A stretch of DNA of 36,655 bases from Planctomycetota bacterium. GTDB taxonomy: Bacteria; Planctomycetota; UBA11346. Within the stretch, counting starts at the first letter, position 1. The number at the start of each line of letters is the position of its first letter. The translations under genes and the position numbers were made by a program. The stretch covers positions 1 through 36,655 of the forward strand of contig REDP01000090.1 in assembly GCA_007693455.1 (NCBI GenBank), in the 5' to 3' direction. Positions 21,331-32,649 of this stretch are shown here, in pieces. Below the pieces are notes generated by a model that did not search any database, was not told the origin of the DNA, and saw nothing but the letters and a program-made list of their open reading frames with translations.

Positions 21331-21419
21331 AGCCGTCTCTTGCCTTGCTTGCATCCAGGTAGGTTTACCATCTTGAGAGGTACATGGGCAGTAGTCTAGT
21401 ACAGGAAAAGGAGCGACAG

Positions 21420-22385
21420 GTGGGTAAACCCTTTGATTTTCTTGATCCATTGTTGGAGTTAGAGCATAAAATCCGTGAATTGGAACAGATGTCCAATGAT
21501 ACCGGTTTGGCCATGGAGAGCGAGATCGAATCGCTGCGTGCCAAGCTGCAAGAGCGCACCCGTAATACCTTCGATAATCTCAATGCCTGGCAGCGGGTGC
21601 AGCTGAGCCGCCATCCCGCACGACCGCAAACATCAGACTATATTGATCACATGGTGACAGATTTTGTGCCCCTGGCAGGTGACCGTGCCTTTGCCGATGA
21701 CGAGGCGCTCATTTGCGGATTGGGCACTATTGATGAACAAAAAGTAATGATTATTGGTCAGCAAAAAGGCAAGGATGTGCATGAGCGGCGGCGCTGTAAC
21801 TTCGGCAGCCCTCATCCTGAAGGGTATCGCAAAGCCATGCATAAAATGCGTTTGGCAGAGCGCTTCGGCCTGCCTATTATAACCCTCATCAATACTCCTG
21901 GGGCTTTCCCTGGTATTGGCGCGGAAGAGCGCGGACAAAGCATAGCCATTGCGGAAAATATTCGCGATATGGCACGACTGCGGGTGCCCGTGATTTGTGT
22001 GATTATTGGCGAGGGTGGCTCGGGTGGCGCCTTGGGAATTGGCGTTGGTGATCGGATTATCACCTTGGAAAACAGTTATTATTCGGTGATCAGCCCAGAG
22101 GGCTGCGCGGCAATTTTATGGAAGGATGGCGCCCAGGCTCCTAAGGCAGCCGAGGCCCTGAAACTAACGGCCCAAGCTCTCAAGGAATTGGGTATAGTTG
22201 ATTCCATTGTAGAGGAGCCGCCAGGGGGTGCCCACCGCGCGCCAGAGGCTATGGCGGCAGCCTTGCGCCAGGAACTTTTGCAGCATTTGCGCCAGCTGAG
22301 TGGTTTGTCGGTAGACGATATGCTTGAGCAGCGTTATGCCAAATTCCGCTCCATTGGTTCCTGGCAGGAAGGTGTGCTGACGTGA
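21420..22385 (+). CDS. accA: Acetyl-CoA carboxylase carboxyltransferase subunit alpha
   Basis: One half of the carboxyltransferase that moves CO2 from carboxybiotin on BCCP to acetyl-CoA, making malonyl-CoA for fatty acid synthesis. The start region (FDFLDPLLELEHKIRELE) resembles E. coli FLDFEQPIAELEAKI. Further matches are RHPARPQTSDYI, FGSPHPEGYRKAMHKMRLAERFGLPIITLINTPGAFPG, AEERGQS, GEGGSGGALGI and YSVISPEGCAAILWKD. The GTG at 21420 has AAGGAG 6 bases upstream and gives 321 residues; the ATG at 21384 is in frame with a poorly spaced GAGAGG, so the longer form is possible. The stop overlaps a PII-like gene as GTGA. AccB, AccC and AccD are elsewhere. Confidence 0.93.
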   Translation: MGKPFDFLDPLLELEHKIRELEQMSNDTGLAMESEIESLRAKLQERTRNTFDNLNAWQRVQLSRHPARPQTSDYIDHMVTDFVPLAGDRAFADDEALICGLGTIDEQKVMIIGQQKGKDVHERRRCNFGSPHPEGYRKAMHKMRLAERFGLPIITLINTPGAFPGIGAEERGQSIAIAENIRDMARLRVPVICVIIGEGGSGGALGIGVGDRIITLENSYYSVISPEGCAAILWKDGAQAPKAAEALKLTAQALKELGIVDSIVEEPPGGAHRAPEAMAAALRQELLQHLRQLSGLSVDDMLEQRYAKFRSIGSWQEGVLT

Positions 22386-22672
22386 GCCTGCGTTTTGAGG
22401 CGATTGTCCGTCCACAAAAGGCGGAGCAGTTGTGCATTGCCTTGAGTGATACGGATATGGTGCGGGCCTTGCAGGCCATCGAGTGTCAAGGGTCTGGCAC
22501 CCGTTCCCCTACGGCGGGAAGTGAGGCGGATCTTTTGCCCAAGGTTGCGCTTACGGGCATTATCGAAGATGACGATGCCGAGGCAGTGCTTGAGATCCTT
22601 CGTCATCATGCCTCCACTGGCCGCCGCGGTGATGGCAAGATTTTCCTCTCGCGGGTGGTTAGCGAGAGTTGA
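22382..22672 (+). CDS. PII (GlnB)-like signalling protein with shortened T-loop
   Basis: The 96-residue protein aligns with GlnB over most of its length. FEAIVRPQKAEQLCIAL matches the first strand and helix (KKIDAIIKPFKLDDVREAL), and LLPKVALTGIIEDDDAEAVLEIL matches FLPKVKIEIVVPDD. TGRRGDGKIF (80-89) matches the nucleotide-binding B-loop TGKIGDGKIF. The T-loop (about 37-50) is several residues shorter than in GlnB and has no counterpart of the uridylylated Tyr51. The C-terminus stops before the RIRTGE of the C-loop. The GTG start overlaps the accA stop as GTGA, giving coupled synthesis with carboxyltransferase. Known GlnB proteins bind BCCP and restrain acetyl-CoA carboxylase, so this is a candidate dedicated regulator. 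Other PII-superfamily members bind other ligands, so specificity is unknown. Confidence 0.78.
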   Translation: MSLRFEAIVRPQKAEQLCIALSDTDMVRALQAIECQGSGTRSPTAGSEADLLPKVALTGIIEDDDAEAVLEILRHHASTGRRGDGKIFLSRVVSES

Positions 22673-28160: not shown

Positions 28161-29426
28161 ATGGCCACCGCAACCCTGCCCGAATATCTCGCCCCTCTTG
28201 GCGACCTCGGTTCCTTGACCCTGCAACAAGTGCGCTTGCTGCGTCGGGTGTGCGAACACAGCGCCGTTGAGCGGCGCAGCATCCTCGAAGCCTATAAAGC
28301 TGGGCAGCTCAGCGGCGTTCCACAGGGCATTTGTGCCTACGCTTTGGATTTTATTGCCGACGCCGACGAGGCCCTTGCCGCAAGTAAAGATCCCCTGGCC
28401 CAGGCAGTCTTAGGGCTGGCGTATATCAGTGTCGGTGAGCTTGAAGACGCAGAAAGGCTCCTCCGTAGTGCCGCAGGGAAGCGCGAAGATGCGCAGCTAG
28501 AGTTGGCGCGACTGCTTATTGATGCACAAAGCCTTGATGCCGCTGAAGCCGTTATCAAGGATATTGGTGATGGCCCCGATGCCGAATTTATCCGCGGCCG
28601 CCTCGAAGAAGCTCAGGGCAATACCGAGCGTGCCATTGGGCATTTTGAGGCAGCTCTCGAACAGGAACCCGAACACGTTGATGCCGCCTTCAAATTGGGC
28701 GTGTTGCTGGATCGCATAGGCGATGATGACATGGCTATAGAATACTACTTGGTATGCTCGGATGCGGCCCCGCCGTACCTTCCAGGGGTGATCAATCTCG
28801 GTATTTTGTATGATGAACGTGGTGAAAGCAATGCTGCCATCGACTGTTTCCGTCAGGTTTTGGCTCACAATGCGGCAAACCGCCGCGCCCGCATGCTCCT
28901 GCGCGATGCCAAAGCCTCCCGCACCATGTACTATGACGAGCATGAAGAGCGTCAACGAGAGCAGCAAGCCAGCATTTTCAAGACTCCCGTCAATGATTTT
29001 GAATTATCGGTTCGCTCGCGGAATTGCCTGGCAAAGATGAATATTTTTACCTTGGGTGATTTGGTCTCCATTACCGAAACCGAGATGCTCAACTATAAGA
29101 ATTTCGGCGAAACCTCGCTCAAAGAGGTGCAAGAAATGCTTGATGCACGTGGCCTGCGCCTGGGCTACTTGCGTGACGATGATGAGCGTGGATTTAATAA
29201 AGCCGACCAAAAAACCTTGGCGGAAACTATCGAGCGCATGGAATTGTCCTCGAAAACAGTGCAGGTATTAGAGCGTCTCGGGGTTGGCAAAATCGGCGAT
29301 CTGCTGGGGTATACCGATGTTGATTTGTACCGTGTGGCAGGTTCTGGGCAAAGTGTGGTGCAGGAGCTCTCCACTGCACTCGGTGCCTACGGCCTCAGCC
29401 TGCCCCAGCCAGAAATCAAAGACTAG
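28161..29426 (+). CDS. TPR protein with two RNA polymerase alpha-CTD-like domains
   Basis: The 421-residue protein has a helical N-terminus and TPR-like hairpins (about 75-250, e.g. AQLELARLLIDAQSLDAAEAVI and VINLGILYDERGESNAAIDCFRQVL). Two helix-hairpin-helix domains follow. The first (279-335: LSVRSRNCLAKMNIFTLGDLVSITETEML...NFGETSL) is unmistakably like RNA polymerase alpha-CTD. The second (358-415) is a diverged copy (ELSSKTVQVLERLGVGKIGDLLGYT). The alpha-CTD binds UP-element DNA and activators, so this protein could bind DNA or other transcription proteins while the TPR holds partners. It is not the polymerase alpha subunit, whose N-terminal dimerisation domain is absent. Such fusions are characteristic of planctomycetes. 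GGGAG upstream of the ATG at 28161 supports this start. It is followed after 5 bases by the ligase-like gene. Confidence 0.87.
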   Translation: MATATLPEYLAPLGDLGSLTLQQVRLLRRVCEHSAVERRSILEAYKAGQLSGVPQGICAYALDFIADADEALAASKDPLAQAVLGLAYISVGELEDAERLLRSAAGKREDAQLELARLLIDAQSLDAAEAVIKDIGDGPDAEFIRGRLEEAQGNTERAIGHFEAALEQEPEHVDAAFKLGVLLDRIGDDDMAIEYYLVCSDAAPPYLPGVINLGILYDERGESNAAIDCFRQVLAHNAANRRARMLLRDAKASRTMYYDEHEERQREQQASIFKTPVNDFELSVRSRNCLAKMNIFTLGDLVSITETEMLNYKNFGETSLKEVQEMLDARGLRLGYLRDDDERGFNKADQKTLAETIERMELSSKTVQVLERLGVGKIGDLLGYTDVDLYRVAGSGQSVVQELSTALGAYGLSLPQPEIKD

Positions 29427-30186: not shown

Positions 30187-31149
30187 ATGCGTCAAGTAGC
30201 GATTATCGGATCTGGGCCTGCTGGTTATACGGCAGCTATCTACAATGCCCGAGCCAATCTGGAACCAGTTTTGTTCACGGGTGAGCAGGCTGGAGGCCAG
30301 CTCACTACCACCACCGATGTGGAAAACTTCCCGGGCTTCCCCGAAGGAATTATGGGTCCAGAGCTGATGACTCGCATGGAGCAGCAAGCAACCCGATTTG
30401 GCACGACGGTAAAAATGGGCTGCACGGTGACTTCCATCGAAAAGGGCGACGATGGCGCCTTTACCGTTACTTGGGATGATTTGTACCAGGGAAGTCAAGA
30501 GAGTGAGCGCTTTCAGGCGGTGATCATTGCCACTGGCGCTAGCGCTCGTTACTTGGGCCTGCCAGGAGAGAAAGATTTTCTCGATGGCAGCGGCGGCAAG
30601 ACCGGCCTGACGGCCTGCGCTACCTGTGATGGCGCCTTTTACCGTGATGTACCAGTATGCGTGGTAGGTGGCGGCGATACCGCTGCCGAAGAAGCAACCT
30701 TCCTCACCAAGTTTGCCAGCACCGTCTACCTGATCCATCGTCGCGATGAGCTGCGTGCGAGTAAAGTCATGGCAGATCGCGTCCTTGCCCAGGAGAAGGT
30801 GCAGCCGATCTGGAATAGCGAGATTACCGAATACATCACTGATGATAATGGCAAAATGCGTGCCGTAGGCTTGCGTAATCGTGAAACAGGCGAGACCTCC
30901 GAACTCGAAATCAAAGGGGTATTTATGGCCATAGGCCATACCCCCAACACCGGCTTCCTCAAAGGCACTGGGGTTGTTACCGATGACAGTGGCTATATTG
31001 AGGTGGAAGGTGGGTGTCGCACCAGTGTGCCAGGCCTATTTGCCGCTGGCGATGTCCGTGATCATACCTATCGTCAAGCGGTAACCGCTGCTGGTATGGG
31101 CTGCATGGCAGCGATCGAAGCAGAACGTTATATCGAAGGCGGCGAATAG
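30187..31149 (+). CDS. trxB: Thioredoxin-disulfide reductase
   Basis: FAD enzyme that passes electrons from NADPH to thioredoxin. The 320-residue protein has [10 protein letters not shown] (8-17) for FAD, the redox pair C144-x-x-C147 in [14 protein letters not shown]-binding [10 protein letters not shown] (about 160-169) and HRRDELRAS, and the C-terminal FAD motif [23 protein letters not shown]. The length is normal for the low-molecular-weight TrxB. An AAGGAG ribosome binding site lies 8-9 bases upstream of the ATG, the best in this stretch. A perfect hairpin (31138-31163) covers its stop codon. The gene after it encodes a protein kinase, with a 57-base gap and possible RNA structure. Thioredoxin itself is not in the window. 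Confidence 0.95.
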
Positions 31150-31163
31150 CAGCGTTCGCCGCC
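31138..31163 (+). other. Perfect 9-bp hairpin over the trxB stop, alternative pairing to kinase SD
   Basis: GGCGGCGAA (31138-31146) pairs perfectly with TTCGCCGCC (31155-31163) around an 8-base loop that includes the trxB stop codon. The same TTCGCCG also pairs with CGGCGAA (31191-31197), directly adjoining the AAAGGA ribosome binding site of the kinase gene. A separate GCCCC/GGGGC stem (31166-31170/31178-31182) sits between. The two long pairings are mutually exclusive. Confidence 0.6.
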
Positions 31164-31206
31164 AGGCCCCCTTGGCTGGGGCATAGTGAACGGCGAAAGG
31201 ACCATT

Positions 31207-32649
31207 GTGCCCTCGGTAGTCATTATCTGTCCGCGCTGTCACCGACATGTCCACCTGCGCCAAGCGCGGGTGGGGCAGGTGCAATGTCCCCATTGTGGGC
31301 ACCGTTGGGTTCCTCGGCGCAGTCATCTCGCGCCGCTGCAGCCAGGCGGAGATAAACGCCGTTTGAACACCGTGTCCTTAAGCGCACCGCCCCAGCCTTC
31401 GCCAGTAGGGCCTCCTGCCGCCGATCCAGACTCCCCCATTGACGCTGCCACCAACGCCGAAAGTAGCCAGCGTTCGGCTCGTACTCGTGCACGAATGCGC
31501 GTGCGAGACGTCCTTGAGCAAAGTGTCTCCGATGCCCCTGCAGATGTTCCTGCGCCTGCCGCGCCATCATCGGAACTGGGATTGCTGGACGCTTTGGTGC
31601 AGGCCGACCAAGATGCTGCGGCACAGTCTCGCCCCCCATCATCACAGTCGCCCACACGTCAGCCATCGCCGCGGCCACGCGTCCGCATGGCCCCGCCCCA
31701 AAGCAGCAAGCCCGAATCGCAACGCTTTTGGCGGGCCCAGCAAGACCCACTGGTGGGCAAAGAGATGCGGGGTTTACGCATCGAACGTAAAATCGGCGAA
31801 GGCGGTATGGGTGCAGTCTACGAAGCAATCCAACTCAGTCTCGAGCGCAAGGTGGCCTTGAAGGTGCTCAATCCGCGCTTGCGTGGCGATGCATCCTTTA
31901 TCGCCAAACTGGAAGCCGAAGCCAAAATACTCGCCCGTATCAACCACAATAATATCCTCCATGTCTATGATTTCGGTGAGGACACTACGGTTTCCATATA
32001 TTTTATGGTTATGGAATATGTTGACGGCTCCGATCTTACTGAGCTGCTGCAACGCCGTGGCCGACTCGGACAAGTAGAGGCCTTGGAGATTATTCGCCAA
32101 GCAGCCTTGGGCCTGGATGCCGCGGCCCAAAATGGCATTATTCATCGCGACCTCAAACCCGATAATATTATGATCAGCAAGGAAGGTGTTTGTAAGGTCT
32201 CCGATTTCGGACTTGCTACCGATATCAGTATTGGCACGGGCGATGCCGCTGCGCGCGTTGGTACTCCAGCTTTTATGAGCCCAGAACAGTGCCAGGGCTT
32301 GCCCTTGGATGTACGTTCCGACGTTTACTCATTAGGTTGCACCGCTTATGTGGCCCTCACGGGACATCTTCCCTTTGAAGGTGAAAGTCCCATGGACATT
32401 ATGATTCAGCAGCGCACGACGCCGCCGCCACTGGTTGGCCAGGATCGCCCAGGTATCGATAGTGAGGCAGAGGCGGTGGTGCAACGGATGATGGCAAAAA
32501 ATCCCCAAGACCGTTATCCGAGCATGGCCGCTGTAGCCGAATCTCTCAAGGCTTTGGTGGAACGCCTGCTCAATGATCCGAGTGGGGGTACGGCGCCCCC
32601 AACGGCGGAAATGACCCCAGATCTTCCGAGTTGGCTCAACGAAGAATAA
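31207..32649 (+). CDS. Ser/Thr protein kinase with N-terminal zinc ribbon
   Basis: The 480-residue protein begins with a zinc-ribbon (MJ0042-like) module, CPRC near residue 8 and CPHCG near 27, followed by a long Pro/Ala/Ser-rich linker (about 45-175). The kinase domain follows: glycine loop GEGGMGAV (about 197-204), catalytic lysine in VALKVL, HRDLKPDN (313-320), DFGLAT (about 333-338) and MSPEQC. This is a Hanks-type kinase close to PknB/Stk families. There is no transmembrane helix, so unlike PknB it is cytoplasmic. The GTG at 31207 has AAAGGA 5 bases upstream; an in-frame GTG at 31186 is possible. The C-terminal tail ends PSWLNEE. The zinc ribbon could sense metal or redox state, or bind protein or nucleic acid. 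The trxB neighbour is suggestive of redox control, not proof. Confidence 0.9.
   Translation: MPSVVIICPRCHRHVHLRQARVGQVQCPHCGHRWVPRRSHLAPLQPGGDKRRLNTVSLSAPPQPSPVGPPAADPDSPIDAATNAESSQRSARTRARMRVRDVLEQSVSDAPADVPAPAAPSSELGLLDALVQADQDAAAQSRPPSSQSPTRQPSPRPRVRMAPPQSSKPESQRFWRAQQDPLVGKEMRGLRIERKIGEGGMGAVYEAIQLSLERKVALKVLNPRLRGDASFIAKLEAEAKILARINHNNILHVYDFGEDTTVSIYFMVMEYVDGSDLTELLQRRGRLGQVEALEIIRQAALGLDAAAQNGIIHRDLKPDNIMISKEGVCKVSDFGLATDISIGTGDAAARVGTPAFMSPEQCQGLPLDVRSDVYSLGCTAYVALTGHLPFEGESPMDIMIQQRTTPPPLVGQDRPGIDSEAEAVVQRMMAKNPQDRYPSMAAVAESLKALVERLLNDPSGGTAPPTAEMTPDLPSWLNEE

Follow-up and report, generated by a model that had tools for sequence, protein, structure and literature searches.

A PII-family paralogue paired with accA in a class of Planctomycetota, and a hypothesis on the control of acetyl-CoA carboxylase

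In a 36,655-nucleotide contig of a Planctomycetota bacterium (GCA_007693455.1, contig REDP01000090.1; this whole stretch is referred to here as the window) the gene accA is directly followed by a gene for a small PII-like protein, which raises the question of whether a PII protein in this lineage has become the dedicated regulator of acetyl-CoA carboxylase (ACC). This had been proposed in a sequence-only reading of the locus, in which the second gene was described as fused by translation to accA and its product as altered in the T-loop and tail. PII is known to inhibit ACC through BCCP in E. coli, Azospirillum, Synechocystis and plants (PMC5080355). An ordinary GlnB that controls ACC serves many targets at once; if the proposal is true, the paralogue that lies beside accA in most genomes of the class would have fat synthesis as its special task, and its natural versions with full and short T-loops would show which parts of PII are needed for control of the carboxylase.

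The gene pair and its product

The features of the locus are collected in Table 1. The accA product lies well above the TIGR00513 cut-off of 319 bits. Its longest ORF opens at ATG 21384, but the GTG at 21420, the start chosen in the sequence-only reading, is the likelier one because it is preceded by AAGGAG (21408-21413) and most relatives align from about residue 13. The four bases GTGA are indeed common to the accA stop and the start of the PII-like gene, this GTG being the sole upstream in-frame start of the ORF, with the Shine-Dalgarno-like sequence 9 nt ahead of it. Stop/start overlaps of four bases are ordinary in bacterial operons, and among the class genomes that have the pair this exact overlap is found in the window genome only. 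Across the class the two genes overlap by as much as 13 bases or stand up to 345 bases apart, and in several genomes a separation of 91-345 bases weakens the case for tight coupling; the overlap is thus a local feature, and the unconserved spacing rules out translational fusion as the key to this locus. A scan for promoters and terminators around the pair gave nothing useful. An assembly artefact is ruled out by the presence of the pair in independent genomes.

Table 1. Features of the accA-PII locus, in window coordinates
Feature	Position	Strand	Evidence
accA, acetyl-CoA carboxylase carboxyltransferase alpha subunit	21420..22385	+	PF03255 467.5 bits, TIGR00513 446 bits
AGGAAGG, Shine-Dalgarno-like sequence of PII-like gene, within accA	22366..22372	+	sequence
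GTGA, PII-like gene start codon overlapping accA stop	22382..22385	+	sequence
PII-family paralogue paired with accA, 96 aa	22382..22672	+	PF00543 43.1 bits; model pLDDT 90.2; PII proteins as best PDB matches
T-loop segment SGTRSPTAGSEADLLPKV, with 18 residues where full-length PII has 24; Lys58 retained, but neither Gln39 nor Tyr51	22493..22546	+	alignment
Conserved B-loop TGRRGDGKIF, with Arg in place of Ile at position 86	22616..22645	+	alignment

The assignment of the 96-residue protein to the PII family holds on both family search and structure prediction. Its score against the Pfam P-II family clears the cut-off of 25 bits, and a PDB search gave 38 distinct sequences of PII type. An AlphaFold2 monomer prediction, made from a 46-row alignment of the window and locus sequences, gave a confident model with the strand and helix order of PII and its ferredoxin-like double beta-alpha-beta fold; all 50 of the Foldseek matches listed for this model are PII proteins (best E 1.3e-9). 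As the model is of a monomer, the PII trimer is assumed here. The protein does not score as canonical GlnB or GlnK, reaching 35.3 and 30.4 bits against equivalog cut-offs of 181 and 202. The accA-PII pair recurs in an independent genome of this genus, with 52% identity between the PII proteins and a dN/dS of about 0.22 (dN 0.46, dS 2.07, the latter near saturation), which suggests that the gene is under purifying selection. Family score, fold and conservation together rule out a chance ORF.

The gene is not the PII copy of the amtB-glnB-glnA cluster: the same genome encodes a second, ordinary PII with Tyr51 and RIRTGE, whose gene is flanked by amtB and glnA on a separate contig (C72). The identity between the two proteins is low, and neither amtB nor glnA is found beside the accA-linked gene in the window. 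Using GlnB numbering, taken from full-length PII, the T-loop segment (GlnB 36-59) of the window protein is six residues short, Arg38 is replaced by Thr and Gln39 by Arg, and Tyr51 is gone; Lys58 and Lys90 are retained. Nothing matches R101 or R103. What had been read from this one protein, a conserved B-loop, a short T-loop without its tyrosine and no RIRTGE tail, is therefore borne out.

Distribution and history in the class

The sample of the window's class comprises 23 genomes, all of one family, and a profile search found the paralogue in 22 of them with at least 105 bits each, whilst their ordinary GlnB copies reach about 52-71 bits and the scores outside the class, among 392 genomes of the phylum, end at 104 bits. 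The placement of these relatives in Planctomycetota accords with PSD1 proteins, which occur in 36 of 59 relatives and in none of 14 controls. The genome that lacks it (G017) is 61% complete and has no accA either, and in G002 the paralogue is at a contig edge in an assembly without accA. In 18 of the 21 class genomes that have both genes, accA is immediately followed on its strand by the paralogue, and the pairing seen in the window thus holds in its relatives. The three exceptions all belong to one genus (g3), where the paralogue is located elsewhere, in two of the three behind astB, encoding succinylarginine dihydrolase (L061 8273-9890, L062 571-2215). Among about 40 phylum genomes outside the class with both positions listed, no PII gene adjoins accA, the nearest being about 14 kb away, and a scan of named genomes yielded PIIs that are all distant and have no accA on the surrounding stretch that was examined. 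In the open-access literature searched, a PII gene linked to accA is nowhere described. One genome of the class (G008) may have a third PII-like gene, at G008:C141:2992-3282, with 40 bits against the class profile.

In a tree the class paralogues form one clade (support 100/98) apart from GlnB, which also excludes tail-less PIIs from elsewhere in the phylum. The accA tree agrees broadly with that of the paralogue, though several of its forks are weak, and there is no sign of horizontal transfer within the class. The linkage to accA looks ancestral in the class because the unlinked genus is nested in the paralogue tree.

The altered residues do not share one history. The RIRTGE tail, including R101 and R103, is absent in all 22 class paralogues. 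The short T-loop is real in the window protein but is not a feature of the group, 15 of the 22 having a loop of full length, and most members have a full T-loop with GRQKG, Tyr51 and Lys58; likewise the missing uridylylation tyrosine is particular to the window protein and its kin, with Tyr51 kept in 15 of the 16 members outside the short clade. The degenerate T-loops belong to a long-branched clade of six (G000, G001, G008, G012, G009 and G007; support 95/92), and the T-loop of G004 has been shortened separately. Read from the alignment and tree, the loss of the tail is common to the whole class and the short T-loop and the loss of Gln39 are later events in the window's subclade.

Control of the carboxylase and competing readings

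The reading that we favour, to which we would give about an even chance, is that this PII paralogue, confined to the class and separate from the cell's own GlnB, took its place downstream of accA early in the evolution of the class and acts on ACC or on malonyl-CoA supply. That it is a dedicated regulator of ACC is a good hypothesis drawn from gene order, for which the glnB-nadE gene pair, which led to a proven interaction in which the enzyme is regulated, provides a precedent (PMC7196632); there too a PII gene adjoins the gene of a metabolic enzyme, although it is another enzyme, and an accA-linked tail-less paralogue is not described in that work. We infer the carboxylase as target, as we do the direction of the effect and the ligand. 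Against ACC as the target, the known partner of PII is BCCP and not AccA, and the position of the paralogue away from accA in g3, in two of three genomes behind astB, means that ACC might not be its only target.

The mechanism would differ from that of the known system, which is alike in the PII fold and in the enzyme suggested as target. Known control of ACC is exerted by ordinary GlnB with a full T-loop and R103, needs ATP and is relieved by 2-oxoglutarate, and either R103H or I86N alone abolishes ACC inhibition by cyanobacterial PII (PMC5080355). Here a separate paralogue lies beside accA and lacks R101 and R103, and the window protein also lacks part of the T-loop. The sequence-only reading set this locus against the background of the known inhibition through BCCP, but the published ATP/2-oxoglutarate switch cannot be assumed because the whole class is without R103 and the window protein, in a subclade that has lost Gln39, has Arg at position 86. 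The loss of Tyr51 is rejected as a sign of ACC specialisation, as a Y51A PII still inhibits ACC (PMC5080355) and most class members keep the tyrosine.

Under the favoured reading, a PII trimer would be made together with AccA and would bind the carboxylase, at the carboxyltransferase or BCCP, via its altered surface. With R101/R103, the tail that grips the phosphate, gone from every member, its nucleotide sensing would have to be weaker than or unlike that of GlnB. In the window's subclade, where Gln39, Tyr51 and six T-loop residues are gone, the protein can probably neither sense 2-oxoglutarate in the known geometry nor be uridylylated at Tyr51, which would make it a more constitutive or otherwise-gated subunit. 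The window protein, to judge from its residues, could not be uridylylated at the Tyr51 site; for the members that retain this tyrosine the modification is possible, as most class genomes have GlnD. A bolder version, in which the regulator is dedicated and PII-built throughout the class and the subclade form has no ATP, 2-oxoglutarate or uridylylation switch and is constitutive or senses another ligand (acyl-CoA, AMP) at the old nucleotide cleft, we regard as unlikely.

A possible, if somewhat doubtful, alternative is that the paralogue is a second general PII, in a division of labour of the GlnK kind, with nitrogen or arginine targets, and that its place in the accA operon sets expression only. 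The arginine catabolism gene astB ahead of the unlinked copies would fit this, as would the full T-loop of most members in a class where GlnD is widespread, which makes nitrogen signalling possible; yet the link to accA persists in 18 of 21 genomes although the flanks differ, no amtB or glnA adjoins the gene in the window, and the tail has been lost in every member.

It is improbable that the protein of the window's subclade is simply decaying, as a one-time PII on which constraint has relaxed and which is kept by its operon position. The long branches and the loss of T-loop residues point that way, as does the PII identity, which is only 39% between subclade members and 65% between the others at similar accA identities, but the ORFs are intact in 6/6 genomes, R9, P57 and GDGK are kept in all six, and both the dN/dS of the genus pair and the confident predicted fold count against it. 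Very improbable is a modifier role, in which the paralogue would enter mixed trimers with canonical GlnB, of the kind known for GlnB and GlnK in E. coli, and spoil the ligand sites, thus acting on GlnB and not directly on ACC: R101 and R103 complete the ligand cleft between PII subunits, so that a subunit without the tail, absent in 22/22, would alter the shared sites, but the paralogue has low identity to its own GlnB, forms a separate clade, and its accA linkage would be left unexplained.

Related PII proteins and neighbouring genes

Another diverged PII clade bound to one operon partner is PII-NG, tied to the czcABC metal-efflux operon in the account of Sant'Anna 2009 cited in PMC7726332. 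The partner there is metal efflux and the gene here is surrounded by accA and other, unrelated genes, with no czcABC-type efflux genes among the window genes by Pfam, and identity with PII-NG is ruled out by these neighbours. Tail-less PIIs from other families of the same phylum (L026, L027, L031, L097, L098 and L100) likewise have no RIRTGE, but mostly keep GYGRQKGH...SEY and TGRIGDGKIF, fall outside the class clade and do not adjoin accA in any case. Their gene contexts are varied, that of L031 being followed by a putative XdhC-type ORF.

Beyond the accA-PII pair itself the neighbouring genes vary between class genomes. The exception is a gene with a CYTH domain, which in several of them stands upstream of accA in divergent orientation (L064 8424-9035 and equivalents), an arrangement that the window does not have. 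The window carries a pyridine nucleotide-disulphide oxidoreductase gene followed by one for a protein kinase (30187-32649), and homologues of both are found upstream of accA in G008 and G012, so that this block has moved relative to accA. Finally, the window encodes a 421-residue protein (28161-29426) with the odd combination of TPR repeats and an RNA polymerase alpha C-terminal domain, the latter in two stretches, and this gene is adjoined by one for an argD-like aminotransferase.
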